21,842 nt of DNA from a bacterium. Lineage in GTDB: Bacteria > UBP6 > JAFGXH01. The stretch is from positions 1 to 21,842 of the forward strand of contig JAMOQH010000015.1 in NCBI GenBank assembly GCA_027064085.1, written 5' to 3'. Under the pieces are notes generated by a model that was given only the letters and a program-made list of their open reading frames with translations, was not told where the DNA came from and did no database searches. How positions within the stretch are numbered: the first letter of the stretch is position 1; every line of letters begins with the position of its first letter. This document shows, one piece after another, positions 7,190 through 21,842 of this stretch. A program made the position numbers and the translations under genes.

Positions 7190-7540
7190 TTAATCCAACT
7201 TAATATAAAATTTACCATCAATTTTTTTTAATGTAACAAATCCAGCATTACCATCTTTTAATAAAATTTCCATATAATATAAATCTTTAACTTTATCTCT
7301 GCTTCTAAATCTTATAGATTTTACATTATATTTATTTATTTGAAAATTACTCCTTATTAATTTATCTTTGCCTCTACTATATTTCTTTTTGCTTTCAGGG
7401 GTTAACATTTCATATATTTTATCCATATTTTTTTCACTCGCATATTTTATAAATAATTTAATAGTCCCTTTTTTATTACCTCTTTCATTATTACACGACA
7501 TTGCTAAAAATATTGTTAAAACAATTATAATATATTTCAT
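7190..7540 (-). CDS. Small probable lipoprotein, NTF2-like
   Basis: The 116 residues start with a signal peptide ending FLAMSC, a slightly non-canonical lipobox with a lipidatable cysteine at residue 16. The mature part 'TIKLFIKYASEKNMDKIYEMLTPESKKKY', then 'YYMEILLKDGNAGFVTLKKIDGKFYI', has the layout of small NTF2-like DUF4878-type lipoproteins, which bind unknown ligands at the membrane. The assignment is by pattern only. GGAG lies five bases before ATG, and a sigma-70-type promoter lies at 7585-7612. It is the first gene of the long minus-strand run. Confidence 0.7.
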   Translation of the reverse strand: MKYIIIVLTIFLAMSCNNERGNKKGTIKLFIKYASEKNMDKIYEMLTPESKKKYSRGKDKLIRSNFQINKYNVKSIRFRSRDKVKDLYYMEILLKDGNAGFVTLKKIDGKFYIKLD

Positions 7541-7584
7541 TCAAACTCCACATAAAAAGCTAAAATTAATTCTAACTAGTAAAT

Positions 7585-7612
7585 ATTTTAATTATCTTTT
7601 ATTAATTGTCAA
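7585..7612 (-). promoter_or_regulatory. Sigma-70-type promoter of the lipoprotein-smr-trx run
   Basis: On the minus strand, a perfect TTGACA (7607-7612) is followed after 16 bases by TAAAAT (7585-7590). The first start codon is at 7540, giving a 5' leader of about 35-40 bases. It could drive all seven genes down to 3377. Confidence 0.65.
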
Positions 7613-7630
7613 GGATAATGAAATATATGT

Positions 7631-7660
7631 AAAAAAAAAAGGCTCCACTAATGTGAAGCC
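7631..7660 (-). terminator. Intrinsic terminator after the tRNA genes
   Basis: On the minus strand GGCTTCAC pairs with GTGGAGCC (eight pairs, one G-T) across the loop ATTA, followed by ten Ts at 7640-7631. It begins a few bases after tRNA-Glu ends. Confidence 0.92.
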
Positions 7661-7663
7661 TTT

Positions 7664-7740
7664 TGGTGATCCCAACGGGATTCGAACCCGTGTTACCGCC
7701 GTGAAAGGGCGATGTCCTAACCGGACTAGACGATGGGATC
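7664..7740 (-). tRNA. tRNA-Glu (anticodon UUC), CCA encoded
   Basis: Read on the minus strand, the acceptor arms GATCCCA and TGGGATC pair fully. The anticodon arm TCGCC-CTTTCAC-GGCGG presents TTC. The T arm is ACGGG-TTCGAAT-CCCGT, and the D arm begins GTCTAGTCC. Discriminator A is followed by an encoded CCA (7664-7666). It is the second gene of a two-tRNA transcript and sits three bases from tRNA-Lys. Confidence 0.97.
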
Positions 7741-7743
7741 ATG

Positions 7744-7816
7744 TGAGCCACGAAGGATTTGAACCTTCGACCACCTGATTAAAAGTCAGATGCTCTACCT
7801 ACTGAGCTAGTGGCTC
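7744..7816 (-). tRNA. tRNA-Lys (anticodon UUU), CCA not encoded
   Basis: Read on the minus strand, acceptor arms GAGCCAC and GTGGCTC pair fully. The D arm is AGCTCAGTAGGTAGAGC, and the anticodon arm CTGAC-TTTTAAT-CAGGT region presents TTT. The T arm carries GGTTCAAATCC. The discriminator A is followed by CAT and then the first base of tRNA-Glu, so the CCA end must be added after transcription. Confidence 0.96.
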
Positions 7817-12884: not shown

Positions 12885-13913
12885 ATGAATAACATAATAG
12901 AATTTTCTCCTTGTAAAAAGAAAGAAAATTTAGAGGAGAAGTTAATTTATTATGTAAAACTAGGTGATTTCAAAAAGGTATCAATTTATTTAAATTGTGA
13001 TTTAGATTTAAATTATAAAGATAAATCTGGAAAAACAGCATTAATATGGGCAACAATTCAAAATTATTATAAATTAATTGAAATATTACTCAAAAATAAA
13101 GCATCTATAGAAGTAAGCGACAATGTAGGTAAAACTTCACTTATTTGGGCCGCTGAGTTGGGCTATATTAATATAATAGAAATATTATTAAAATATAATC
13201 CAATTATAGATAGAAGAGACCAAGACAGTATGAGTGCACTATCTTGGGCCTCTTTAAATGGCAATACAAAAGTTATGAACTTGCTTATAGAAAACAATGC
13301 AGATGTAAACTTAATAGATAGAGATGGAGTAACCCCACTAATGCATGCGACATGGTCTGAAAACTTAAATTCAGTAAAACTATTAGTTAACAATAACGCT
13401 GATATTAACAAAATTGATCATTCTCGGCAAACAGCAATATTTAGGGCATGTTATAAAAACAATACTGATATCTTAGAATTTTTACTTATGAATGGAGCTG
13501 ATTTCAATAAACTTGATATTAATCATTGGCCGGCATTTATATGGGCATTAATTCAAGAAAACTATCAAAGTTCTGATTTATTATTAAAATATGGATTTAA
13601 TATAAATAAATTGCTAAATAATAGAAAATCAATACTGGTTCTTTTTATAAAAGAAGAAAATTATTCTATAATTGAGTATCTTCTTAAACAAAGTATTAAT
13701 GTAGACATTAGAGATTACAGAAATAAAACTCCTTTAATGTATGCAGCTGAATTAGGAAACTTAAAAATTGTTAAATTATTATTAAAAAATGGAGCTAATC
13801 CATTCAAATCAGATAAATATGGTACTACTCCATTTTTATATGCAATAGAAAATAATTTTATACAAGTATCAAACTTAATACATGAAGAAATATTAAAGCT
13901 TAGAAAGTGCTGA
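12885..13913 (+). CDS. Ankyrin-repeat protein, about 9 repeats
   Basis: Ankyrin repeats are protein-binding scaffolds. After a short N-terminal stretch, the 342 residues consist of about nine 33-residue repeats. Clear ones are KTALIWATIQNYYKLIEILL, VTPLMHATWSENLNSVKLLV and KTPLMYAAELGNLKIVKLLL. The two repeats around residues 215-280 (WPAFIWALIQENYQS, KSILVLFIKEENYS) are degenerate. There is no signal peptide or membrane segment, so it should be cytoplasmic unless exported by another route. It follows the exported protein gene by one base. The last 21 bases overlap the end of the convergent second ankyrin gene. Partner and role are unknown. Confidence 0.93.
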   Translation: MNNIIEFSPCKKKENLEEKLIYYVKLGDFKKVSIYLNCDLDLNYKDKSGKTALIWATIQNYYKLIEILLKNKASIEVSDNVGKTSLIWAAELGYINIIEILLKYNPIIDRRDQDSMSALSWASLNGNTKVMNLLIENNADVNLIDRDGVTPLMHATWSENLNSVKLLVNNNADINKIDHSRQTAIFRACYKNNTDILEFLLMNGADFNKLDINHWPAFIWALIQENYQSSDLLLKYGFNINKLLNNRKSILVLFIKEENYSIIEYLLKQSINVDIRDYRNKTPLMYAAELGNLKIVKLLLKNGANPFKSDKYGTTPFLYAIENNFIQVSNLIHEEILKLRKC

Positions 13914-15656
13914 AACTAAATATTTTCGAATAGGCTCTTTGTTTGTATAAATAATAATATCCTGATTCTCTTTTAGATAGTTATTATAATATGAACCCTC
14001 AATAAAAAAGCTAATTATATCCATGTGTTCTTCTATAATTGCATACTTTAATGCATTAATATTATTATAATTTGTTGCAGTTAGAGAAGCTCCTGATTCA
14101 ACAAGAATTTTAACTGCATCAAGATGTCCACTTAAGCTAGCTAACATTAATGGAGTTCTATTATAATTATCATCCATGTCAATATGACTTCCTTTTGCAA
14201 GTAAAAGCTTTATTATTTCAACATGACCATAATATGCAGCGTATCCAAGCAAAGTAACCCCTTCATTATCGCTCGTTTCTAAATTTGCTCCTTTAGATAA
14301 TAGATACTCTACAACATTTTTATAACCTTTTCTTACTGCATGAGCCAATGAAGTAACACCATGATCATTTTTATTGTCAATGTTATCCATTAAATCAACT
14401 AAAATAAAAATAGATTCAATAGAGTTATTTTGCGAAGCATAAGCAAGAACACTATTCCCCATGATATCCTTAACATTAACACTAACATTATTTTCAATTA
14501 ATTTAAGTAGAGCTTTGGTATTATTCTTAATTGCAGCAAAAAATATAGGAGTCATATTATAATCATTTTTCTTTTCAATATATATTTTTTTTTCAAGAAA
14601 AAAATTAAAAATATCTTCTCTAAAATACTTAATTGCATACACTAAAGGAGAATTTCCCTCGTCATCGTAAACACCATTGTTGTTATAAAAATCAAATAAA
14701 TATTCAAGAACTTCCAAACTTCCATACTTTGCCGCATAGTGTACTGGAGCCAAACCATAATTATCTGAATCAAAAATATTTGCCTTCATAGAATGAAGTT
14801 TTTTTAATATTCCAAGCATATTATTTTCAGCAGCATATATTATAGAGGATTTACCGCTATAGCTTTTAATTGTTATTGAGGGATTATACTCTAATAATAA
14901 ATTTACGATATCAATATATTTATGCTTTACTGCTAGTAACAAGGCTGTTCGGCCATTTGAATCTCTTTTATCAATATTTTCAACAAGTGAATTCTCCAAA
15001 TATAATTTTGTAACCTTATAATTTCCCTCTATTACAGCCCAAAGAAATGAAGTTGCATTGTTGTAATCTTCCTTATTTAAATCAGCTTTTGCATTAATTA
15101 GGATTTTTATTAAAGGAATATTATCATGTGTTGAGGCATACATTATTGCCGTATAACCATTATTATCTGTAGCATTAACCATGGCACCTTTTTCTATCAA
15201 AAATTTAACAGTCTCAAATCTATCATATTTAGTTGCAATAATTAATGGTGTTTTTCCTTTTTTGTTTTTAGATTCAATATTTGCACCATTTTTTAACAAT
15301 ATTTCAACAGCTTTAAGTTCTCCATTCATACAGGCATAAGATAACGGAGTGGTACCTGAATTATCTTTTTGGTCAATCTTGACATTTTTCTTAATTAATA
15401 AATTTATTATTTTAGCATTACCATTTCTGGCAGCATATATCAACGGAGTAGCTCCATTAGCATTTTTAGTTTCTATATTTACTTTATTATCAATAAGGTA
15501 TTTTACAATATCAAAATAATTTTTTCTTACAGCAAGCGATAAAGCTGTTCTGTGATTTTGATCATAAGATTCTATTGAAACTCTTTTGCTTAACTTCTTT
15601 ACTTTATTAATATCCCCTAAATAAGCAGCAGATAAAAACTCTTTATTTCTACTCAA
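13893..15656 (-). CDS. Large ankyrin-repeat protein, about 16 repeats, TTG start
   Basis: The 587 residues are almost wholly ankyrin. A cap (EFLSAAYLGDINKVKKLSKR) is followed by about sixteen 33-residue repeats, for example ATPLIYAARNGNAKIINLLI, TTPLSYACMNGELKAVEILL and RTPLMLASLSGHLDAVKILV, then a short tail ending YLVSALSKL. There is no signal peptide or membrane segment. The start is TTG at 15656, chosen because AGGGAG lies five bases before it and no ATG precedes the first repeat helix. An extended -10 promoter lies upstream. The tail overlaps the smaller ankyrin gene, whose repeats are similar in kind, suggesting an inverted duplication that has since diverged. The target is unknown. Confidence 0.93.
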   Translation of the reverse strand: MSRNKEFLSAAYLGDINKVKKLSKRVSIESYDQNHRTALSLAVRKNYFDIVKYLIDNKVNIETKNANGATPLIYAARNGNAKIINLLIKKNVKIDQKDNSGTTPLSYACMNGELKAVEILLKNGANIESKNKKGKTPLIIATKYDRFETVKFLIEKGAMVNATDNNGYTAIMYASTHDNIPLIKILINAKADLNKEDYNNATSFLWAVIEGNYKVTKLYLENSLVENIDKRDSNGRTALLLAVKHKYIDIVNLLLEYNPSITIKSYSGKSSIIYAAENNMLGILKKLHSMKANIFDSDNYGLAPVHYAAKYGSLEVLEYLFDFYNNNGVYDDEGNSPLVYAIKYFREDIFNFFLEKKIYIEKKNDYNMTPIFFAAIKNNTKALLKLIENNVSVNVKDIMGNSVLAYASQNNSIESIFILVDLMDNIDNKNDHGVTSLAHAVRKGYKNVVEYLLSKGANLETSDNEGVTLLGYAAYYGHVEIIKLLLAKGSHIDMDDNYNRTPLMLASLSGHLDAVKILVESGASLTATNYNNINALKYAIIEEHMDIISFFIEGSYYNNYLKENQDIIIYTNKEPIRKYLVSALSKL

Positions 15657-20571: not shown

Positions 20572-21774
20572 CTATTCTTTTTTAATTTTATTTATTTCTT
20601 CTTTTGATAATCCTGTTAATTCCATAATTTTATTAATGTCTGTTTTAGTATTTATTAATAATTTTACTAAATTAGTAATCTGTTTTCTAGCTTCTTCTTC
20701 TCTTTTTTTAGCTTCTTTTGCTCTTTTTTCTGCCTCTTTTGCTTTTTTAGCTTCCTCTTTTGCTTTTTTAGAAAGAGTTTCTACTTCTCCTGAAAGATTT
20801 TCTACTTCTCCTGAAAGATTTTCTACTTCTCCTGAAAGATTTTCTACTTCTCCTGAAAGGTTTTCCACTTCTCCCGAAAGTTTTTTAAGTTTTTTTGAAG
20901 TTTCAATAACCTTTTTTTCCTTTTCAATAAGAACAGAAGTATATTTTAAATATGCTTCTTTTAATTCATCTTCCTTGGTAATATATTTAATTTCTTCTTC
21001 CGTTAATCTATCCTTTAAAAGAATATTCATTATTTCCATGAACAAGTTATCATCTTGATAGTTTTTAAAATCAGATTTTTTGTTCTTTTTGTTGTTGGTC
21101 TTTTTGGCAAAATCAAACCATTTACCATATTTACCACTTTTATTTTTGTTATTTTTTAAATTTTTAACAATGTTTTTCTGAAAAATAAAAGTTAGTCTAC
21201 TTTCTGATAAAAAATTTAATCCTTTGGTATCATTATTTTGTATATTTAAAACTCTTTCCCGTTCTTTAAGGATTTGGTCAAAAGGTTTACTCCACAAATC
21301 ATTATCTTTTACAAAATCATGTAATTCTTCAACTCCCATTTTAAAGCTTACAAAATCTTCTTTAAAATTTAAAGTATCATCAACCATCCATATTAAAGTA
21401 ATAGCAGGTTTTAAATCATTGTAAAGTTTATCTTTGATTATATTACCCGTTTGTGAATCAATGGAAACAATTTGCTCTTCAAGGGTTTCAAGTTGTAGAG
21501 AAGTTGATAAGGCATGATATAAATAAAATCTTTTAATTATATCAGTTTTATACCATTGTTGCATTTCTATTATAACAATTTCACCATTATCAAGTTTACA
21601 TCTATAATCAAACTCAACAGGAAGAGCTTTATCAGTTATAAAATTCTTTCTTTCAAGAATTTCTATATCTTCTATTTTTATATCAAGAAAATCCTGCAAA
21701 AAGGCTTTGGCAAATTTCTTTTGCCCAAATACTTTTTTAAAGAATCTATCATAATTTAATGGTGCTAAATACAT
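20572..21774 (-). CDS. Rpn-family PD-(D/E)XK nuclease/transposase with repeat coiled coil
   Basis: Rpn (recombination-promoting nuclease, 'PD-(D/E)XK nuclease family transposase') proteins are DNA endonucleases linked to RecA-independent recombination and phage defence. The 400 residues open with the family start LAPLNYDRFFKKVFGQKK. The nuclease core follows: LPVEFDYRCKLDNGEIVIIEMQ, with D56 and the E-x-Q pair in IIEMQQ, then KTDIIKRFYLYHALSTSL. After a basic linker there is a helical segment, a five-fold LSGEVEN heptad repeat, an alanine/lysine/glutamate coiled coil and a C-terminal helix-turn-helix-like end (MELTGLSKEEINKIKKE). The start has AAGGAGGG two bases away. The catalytic core looks intact. 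It stands alone with no obvious partner gene. Confidence 0.88.
   Translation of the reverse strand: MYLAPLNYDRFFKKVFGQKKFAKAFLQDFLDIKIEDIEILERKNFITDKALPVEFDYRCKLDNGEIVIIEMQQWYKTDIIKRFYLYHALSTSLQLETLEEQIVSIDSQTGNIIKDKLYNDLKPAITLIWMVDDTLNFKEDFVSFKMGVEELHDFVKDNDLWSKPFDQILKERERVLNIQNNDTKGLNFLSESRLTFIFQKNIVKNLKNNKNKSGKYGKWFDFAKKTNNKKNKKSDFKNYQDDNLFMEIMNILLKDRLTEEEIKYITKEDELKEAYLKYTSVLIEKEKKVIETSKKLKKLSGEVENLSGEVENLSGEVENLSGEVENLSGEVETLSKKAKEEAKKAKEAEKRAKEAKKREEEARKQITNLVKLLINTKTDINKIMELTGLSKEEINKIKKE
20776..20880 (-). repeat. Five tandem 21-base units coding LSGEVEN heptads
   Basis: Units fall at 20776-20796, 20797-20817, 20818-20838, 20839-20859 and 20860-20880. The three middle units are identical. 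The unit first in the protein differs only at synonymous positions, and the last changes N to T. Each adds one heptad to a coiled coil. Confidence 0.97.
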
Positions 21775-21813
21775 AGCCCTCCTTGTTCTAAAATCTTTAG
21801 TTACAATAATCCC

Positions 21814-21834
21814 GTTCCCAAGGAGGAGCTAGAC
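21814..21834. repeat. Flank of the rpn element, inverted match to 20534-20557
   Basis: GTTCCCAAGGAGGAGCTAGA here and, on the opposite strand at 20534-20557, GTTACTAGCAAGGGGACAAG continuing CTAC share GTT, CAAGG, GG and AGCTA in order with small gaps. The two stand either side of the rpn gene in inverted orientation. The left part also recalls the common dispersed GTTCCCAAG palindromic repeats. Confidence 0.3.
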
Positions 21835-21842
21835 AGAGCAAT

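Follow-up and report, generated by a model that had tools for sequence, protein, structure and literature searches.

Rpn proteins are widespread anti-phage toxins. Zhong et al. found that the C-terminal domains of these proteins are also produced as separate products, from an internal start located 8–20 residues before a repeat, and that they block the full-length toxin, with the C-terminal domain dimerising via its first helix (PMC10327210). The repeats, in a hypervariable helix of the Rpn C-termini, are of four residues, their number differs between strains, and one repeat added to only one of the partners abolishes inhibition (PMC10327210); heptads or other seven-residue units are mentioned nowhere in the text of that study. 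In NeuO, the activity of the enzyme rises linearly with the number of heptads in its poly-psi RLKTQDS heptad VNTR (PMC3046976), and in TolA the number of intragenic tandem repeats affects phenotype, their contraction being RecA-dependent (PMC3477136), so both show that a protein can be tuned through the number of its in-frame repeats. According to the account cited in PMC10327210, the number of TAEL repeats in the spacer of EcoR124I/II is a ruler on which the gap in the DNA site depends.

In this study, we analysed a stretch of bacterial DNA of 21,842 nucleotides (hereafter, the window), for which an initial annotation had proposed a slippage-prone heptad repeat inside an Rpn nuclease gene. 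The features of that gene are as follows.

20572–21774, minus strand: Rpn-like PD-(D/E)XK nuclease gene, 400 amino acids with an ATG start (open reading frame; PF12784 match)
21777–21784, minus strand: Shine-Dalgarno sequence AAGGAGGG of the full-length gene (read from the sequence)
21025–21774, minus strand: nuclease part, residues 1–250, with D9, D56, E70, Q72 and R82 (residue conservation and fold match)
20650–21000, minus strand: single predicted long helix, residues 259–375 (AlphaFold2)
20860–20880, minus strand: repeat unit 1, CTTTCGGGAGAAGTGGAAAAC, LSGEVEN, residues 299–305
20797–20859, minus strand: repeat units 2–4, three copies of CTTTCAGGAGAAGTAGAAAAT without differences, LSGEVEN, residues 306–326
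20776–20796, minus strand: repeat unit 5, CTTTCAGGAGAAGTAGAAACT, LSGEVET, residues 327–333
20683–20775, minus strand: degenerate heptads LSKKAKE EAKKAKE AEKRAKE AKKREEE (Tandem Repeats Finder and register listing)
20727–20770, minus strand: seam at which paralogs change C-terminal tail, residues ~337–350 (ends of BLAST alignments with loci L002, L005, L006 and L008)
20575–20724, minus strand: RpnS-like three-helix tail, residues 351–400 (structural alignment and tail profile)

The placement of the repeat in an Rpn nuclease gene was substantiated by a match to the PDDEXK_2 profile (PF12784) of 34.8 bits, above the curated cut-off of 27.4, and by the catalytic residues. D9, D56, E70, Q72 and R82 of the window protein match the residues required in RpnA, namely D11, D63, E82, Q84 and R94 (PMC5350276), the last three being spaced identically; 29 homologs from several phyla all have D9, D56, Q72 and R82, and each has either E or D at residue 70. 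The score against TIGR01784, the NCBI naming model for Rpn, was 30.9 bits, below its cut-off of 52.1 that several paralogs in the same genome pass, and at an E-value of 0.001 the window protein had no match to Transposase_31/YhgA-like (PF04754), which was matched by one of the 29 homologs. PADLOC returned weak coiled-coil matches and nothing else, and matches to the full protein in a sequence search of the PDB were mostly to coiled coils. An AlphaFold2 model produced from a 29-row alignment reached a mean pLDDT of 80 and comprises a mixed alpha/beta core, one helix spanning residues 259–375 and two short helices. By VIA-align, its core has middling similarity to PD-(D/E)XK nucleases (Z 4–6; McrC, Can2, Card1 and EndoMS at Z 5–6), and its last 50 residues superpose on crystallised E. 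coli RpnA-S (7th0) with 46 of 46 residues aligned, an rmsd of 1.4 Å and a Z of 6.1. By sequence, a tail profile of heptad and tetrad tails (A2) matches 7th0 with an E-value of 2.6e-6, and a heptad-only profile (A3) with an E-value of 0.07. The PF12784 match, the RpnA residues and the tail superposition together therefore identify the protein as a PD-(D/E)XK nuclease of the Rpn-like type whose tail is RpnS-like, and the array is situated in the predicted helix leading into that tail. The model also upholds the coiled-coil setting of the initial annotation, as the array lies in one long predicted helix beside the RpnS-like dimerisation tail. Continuity of the helix is uncertain at residues 325–332, inside the array, because pLDDT there is below 50, and the glycine and serine in every LSGEVEN unit make for a weaker helix.

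Elsewhere in the window there are two large ankyrin-repeat ORFs at 12885–15656, which run on opposite strands and overlap at their 3' ends, and genes for tRNA-Glu and tRNA-Lys at 7664–7816 on the minus strand; a plus-strand ORF across the two tRNA genes (7368–7778) is probably spurious.

Positions 20776–20880 of the minus strand consist of exactly five 21-mers, encoding four LSGEVEN peptides and one LSGEVET at residues 299–333 of the 400-residue protein. Tandem Repeats Finder reported an array at 20771–20885 with a period of 21, 5.5 copies, 94% matches and a score of 195, which together with direct listing confirmed five tandem units of which the middle three are identical. The tandem self-match score of the window ORF was 98, compared with a maximum of 15 among 965 codon-shuffled ORFs from our survey (see below). 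The coordinates first given for the repeat were exact but the heptad stretch proved longer than had been described, since decayed heptad periodicity extends beyond the five units to ~20683, where the second-best array of the window adjoins the first (20683–20771, 21 bp, 74%, score 94). Every array unit has Val at position a and Leu at position d, and the degenerate heptads keep the same a/d register, which continues toward the tail with weaker core positions that are mostly alanine.

Paralogs in the same genome provided evidence of how the array changes. Five units are present in the window gene, one in the paralog on contig C130, two in that on C27 and four in that on C144; the identity of the upstream DNA to the window gene is 99.1% over 71 codons for C130, 97.1% for C27 and 92.3% for C144, and the sole unit of the C130 paralog has the same sequence as unit 5 of the window, CTTTCAGGAGAAGTAGAAACT. 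The C130 and C27 paralogs sit at contig ends. Near-identical paralogs with 1, 2, 4 and 5 units bear out the earlier proposal that each unit adds one heptad and keeps the frame, and judged from these genes of one genome the repeat is unstable. The inner units of C144 are three copies of CTTTCAGGAGAGGTTGAGAAT, identical to one another, and differ from the inner units of the window at nine of 21 codons (three per unit), all synonymously and with no amino-acid changes; the synonymous difference between the two genes upstream is 50 of 276. Because inner units are identical within each gene but different between the genes, each array must have been homogenised locally after the genes parted, in agreement with the recent expansion or homogenisation suggested by the initial annotation; the coding sequences compared indicate that it is the peptide, not the DNA, that has stayed the same between the two arrays. 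Among these paralogs, then, neither is copy number fixed nor does the divergence between units equal that of the rest of the gene, the two outcomes that had been named as counting against the proposal. Taken as a whole, the interpretation in the initial annotation is supported in part. More widely, copy number differed by at least 0.9 in 55 of 64 within-genome pairs having the same unit and at least 80% identical upstream DNA, although the count takes in degenerate units and pairs that are not independent of one another.

Several observations on other loci touch on repeats of this type. Two Bacteroidetes/Bacteroidales MAGs (L060 and L065) have rpn duplicates side by side whose upstream stretches are 100% identical and whose repeat numbers are 6.2 and 5.2, and 4.9 and 6.9, respectively, a clean snapshot of copy-number change. 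A paralog in the window's own genome (L020, contig C96, ~500–870) has a QREKEKA heptad array in which one unit lacks a single base. Its tail is lost to the resulting frameshift, and this may be the mark of a pseudogene, a slippage-type off state or an error in the assembly. Loci L012, L015 and L016 of genome G001 have long arrays of 21-bp period outside rpn genes with several frames open (HREKVTE, GSEKVYQ), and a TTNYKLQ-type tandem array (L002, 2778–2930) is directly downstream of the C144 paralog.

The extent to which such arrays occur in related proteins was surveyed in 193 distinct Rpn-type ORFs obtained by iterative phmmer searches over fetched loci. Strong tandem arrays were found in 93 of them, 91 of which have the array near the C-terminus with a unit of 4 (n = 58), 8 (n = 13), 7 (n = 18) or 14 codons (n = 2; L177 and L182 were left out of this class as their arrays are upstream of the gene). 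A scan of all nucleotide periods from 5 to 63 in the 193 ORFs found only 12, 21, 24, 42 and 63. Tetrads mostly contain glycine (KGIE, EEGR, EGKI) and most heptads are rich in Lys, Glu and Ala; arrays at the same site in other genes have unit size, but not DNA sequence, in common. Heptads are present in the window's family, Victivallales, Bacteroidales and at least three further genomes, and no report of heptads in Rpn proteins was found in the open-access literature. The nuclease parts of L022, a heptad gene of the window's own genome, and L085, a tetrad gene of G001, are 67% identical, which suggests that one nuclease lineage can carry either unit. No relatives were found in the plasmids or viral contigs searched, nor did a heptad tail query match plasmids; of the plasmid-borne Rpn proteins retrieved by another heptad query, the four examined each had either tetrads or no array.

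Tetrad and heptad genes also differ in the presence of an internal start, for which our strict criterion was at least five Shine-Dalgarno bases within the 35 codons upstream of the array. All 11 tetrad rpn genes with a clear array in the window's genome have an internal Shine-Dalgarno sequence and start, typically AAGGAGGATAAAATG at 10–17 codons before the array, in agreement with the published 8–20 residues, whereas none of the eight clear heptad genes of that genome does (L020 has a weak TTG). No start preceded by a Shine-Dalgarno sequence was found within 45 codons upstream of the array in the window gene or its close paralogs. Outside the MQQW subfamily, internal starts are present in 36 of 54 tetrad genes versus one of 11 heptad genes (Fisher p = 6e-4, a value that ignores phylogeny); inside the subfamily the numbers are 0 of 17 and two of nine, respectively. 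Both heptad positives in that subfamily are G001 homologs (L012 and L014) with AAGGAGGATGAT-ATG upstream of the array, and therefore a missing antitoxin start is no rule for heptads. LSGEVEN was at first taken for an RpnS-type antitoxin lock, a reading abandoned once no internal start was found in the window gene. As the heptad genes here are without one, the most likely role of their array is in the full-length protein, in homo-oligomerisation and not in antitoxin matching.

The window's tail DNA is 92% identical to that of L008 (132 nt) and 86% identical to that of L006, although the nuclease of L008 is 27% identical to that of the window and the nuclease of L006 has no significant similarity to it. 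The converse is found in L002, whose nuclease DNA is 92% identical and whose tail is unrelated. The points of switching are directly behind the array, in the degenerate coil and outside the LSGEVEN units. Tails thus appear, from these alignments, to have been exchanged between paralogs just 3' of the array; in single cases this could be misassembly at rpn repeats, because rpn genes lie at the ends of many contigs of the genome. The window's own contig ends 68 bases upstream of the start codon (window 21774–21842), many others start or stop within an rpn gene, and the more than 30 rpn matches are therefore probably what breaks up the assembly.

In a coiled coil, seven residues make two turns, or about 10 Å with no net rotation, and four residues make a rotation of about 50 degrees. 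Taken with the a/d register of the units, this geometry would make heptad arrays length rulers and tetrad arrays rotational locks. Units would be gained or lost via local slippage or unequal recombination, each heptad (a = Val, d = Leu) adding two turns and about 10 Å while register and rotational phase are kept; the array would then be a ruler for the distance between nuclease and tail, and perhaps for dimer stability. With each tetrad copy the tail would turn by about 50 degrees, and such a rotational lock fits the published role of tetrads as an allele-specific lock between RpnL and RpnS. Heptads probably lengthen the linker without rotating it. Overall, the array is a 21-bp repeat that varies in length and keeps the frame, in the predicted helix from nuclease to RpnS-like tail, and we put at about even the chances that it acts as a length ruler. 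We propose more tentatively, and consider possible though doubtful, that Rpn-like nucleases with heptad arrays form a regulatory class apart, which lacks an intragenic antitoxin, grows its linker with the register preserved and exchanges tails between unrelated nucleases immediately behind the array.

The same array could vary with no function attached to its length, as an A-rich coding stretch of a surplus family that varies freely by neutral slippage and tolerates any in-frame, helix-compatible unit. The genome has more than 30 rpn-type matches, several of them fragmentary or with stops, one paralog has the frame-breaking deletion inside its array, and selection is unnecessary for such arrays to vary. 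However, only 4, 8, 7 or 14 codons form the unit in 91 C-terminal arrays, the heptad peptide was kept while synonymous sites changed, and the catalytic residues are intact; we regard neutral variation as rather unlikely, a judgement that also extends, with less weight still on its side, to a system like that of the tetrads. There, an RpnS-type antitoxin, made from an unrecognised internal start or another gene, would have to match the repeat number of its toxin, as might be expected from the RpnS fold of the window tail, the perfect internal starts of tetrad paralogs in the same genome and the AAGGAGGATGAT-ATG before the array of G001 heptad homologs. Against it are the missing start in the window gene and close paralogs and the fact that heptads keep register, so that a mismatch should be better tolerated.

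The sharing of tail DNA by genes with dissimilar nucleases, and the converse case of L002, would also be accounted for if the array and the coil behind it served mainly as a homologous seam for exchange of C-terminal tails. That role is improbable, as the switch points are in the degenerate coil and not in the LSGEVEN units, and exchange could be a side effect. Least credible of all, to the point of being negligible, is that the 21-bp repeats act as DNA, in the form of iteron-like binding sites or an antisense product. Their period does equal two turns of DNA and an ORF on the opposite strand (20636–21058) spans the array, but L002 keeps the same peptide with different DNA and other arrays at the site share unit size and no DNA sequence; DNA-element and antisense readings were rejected on this synonymous-site evidence.

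If heptad arrays do define a regulatory class of their own, linker length and tail would represent two independent evolutionary dials of its nucleases. The restriction of one site to units of 4/8 or 7/14 residues, with unit type tracking the internal start in one genome, offers a direct test of helix rotation (tetrads) against helix length alone (heptads), and the in-frame variable repeat of the window gene would allow slippage to be measured cleanly in a gene for a nuclease.

Comparison with known systems shows that the idea has more precedent than was first apparent, since variable repeats at this site of Rpn proteins were already established (PMC10327210), a point missed in the initial annotation: the known repeats there are of four residues, and the difference lies in the unit of seven. 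RpnL–RpnS is alike in gene layout, in having a nuclease and a three-helix C-terminal domain homologous to that of the window protein, and in the site (the first helix of the RpnS domain) and variable number of its in-frame tandem units. It differs in that the window unit has seven residues, not four, and is without glycine at every fourth residue, and in that no internal RpnS start was found in the window gene. NeuO likewise has coding units of 21 nt in variable number, each giving one heptad, but it is an unrelated acetyltransferase whose repeat is N-terminal, has 7-nt units that also switch frame and is unresolved in the crystal. TolA shares in-frame intragenic repeat variation and is an unrelated envelope protein, whereas EcoR124I/II, a defence enzyme with a ruler in its spacer, parallels the ruler proposed for the window gene, though it has four-residue units and belongs to a restriction system.
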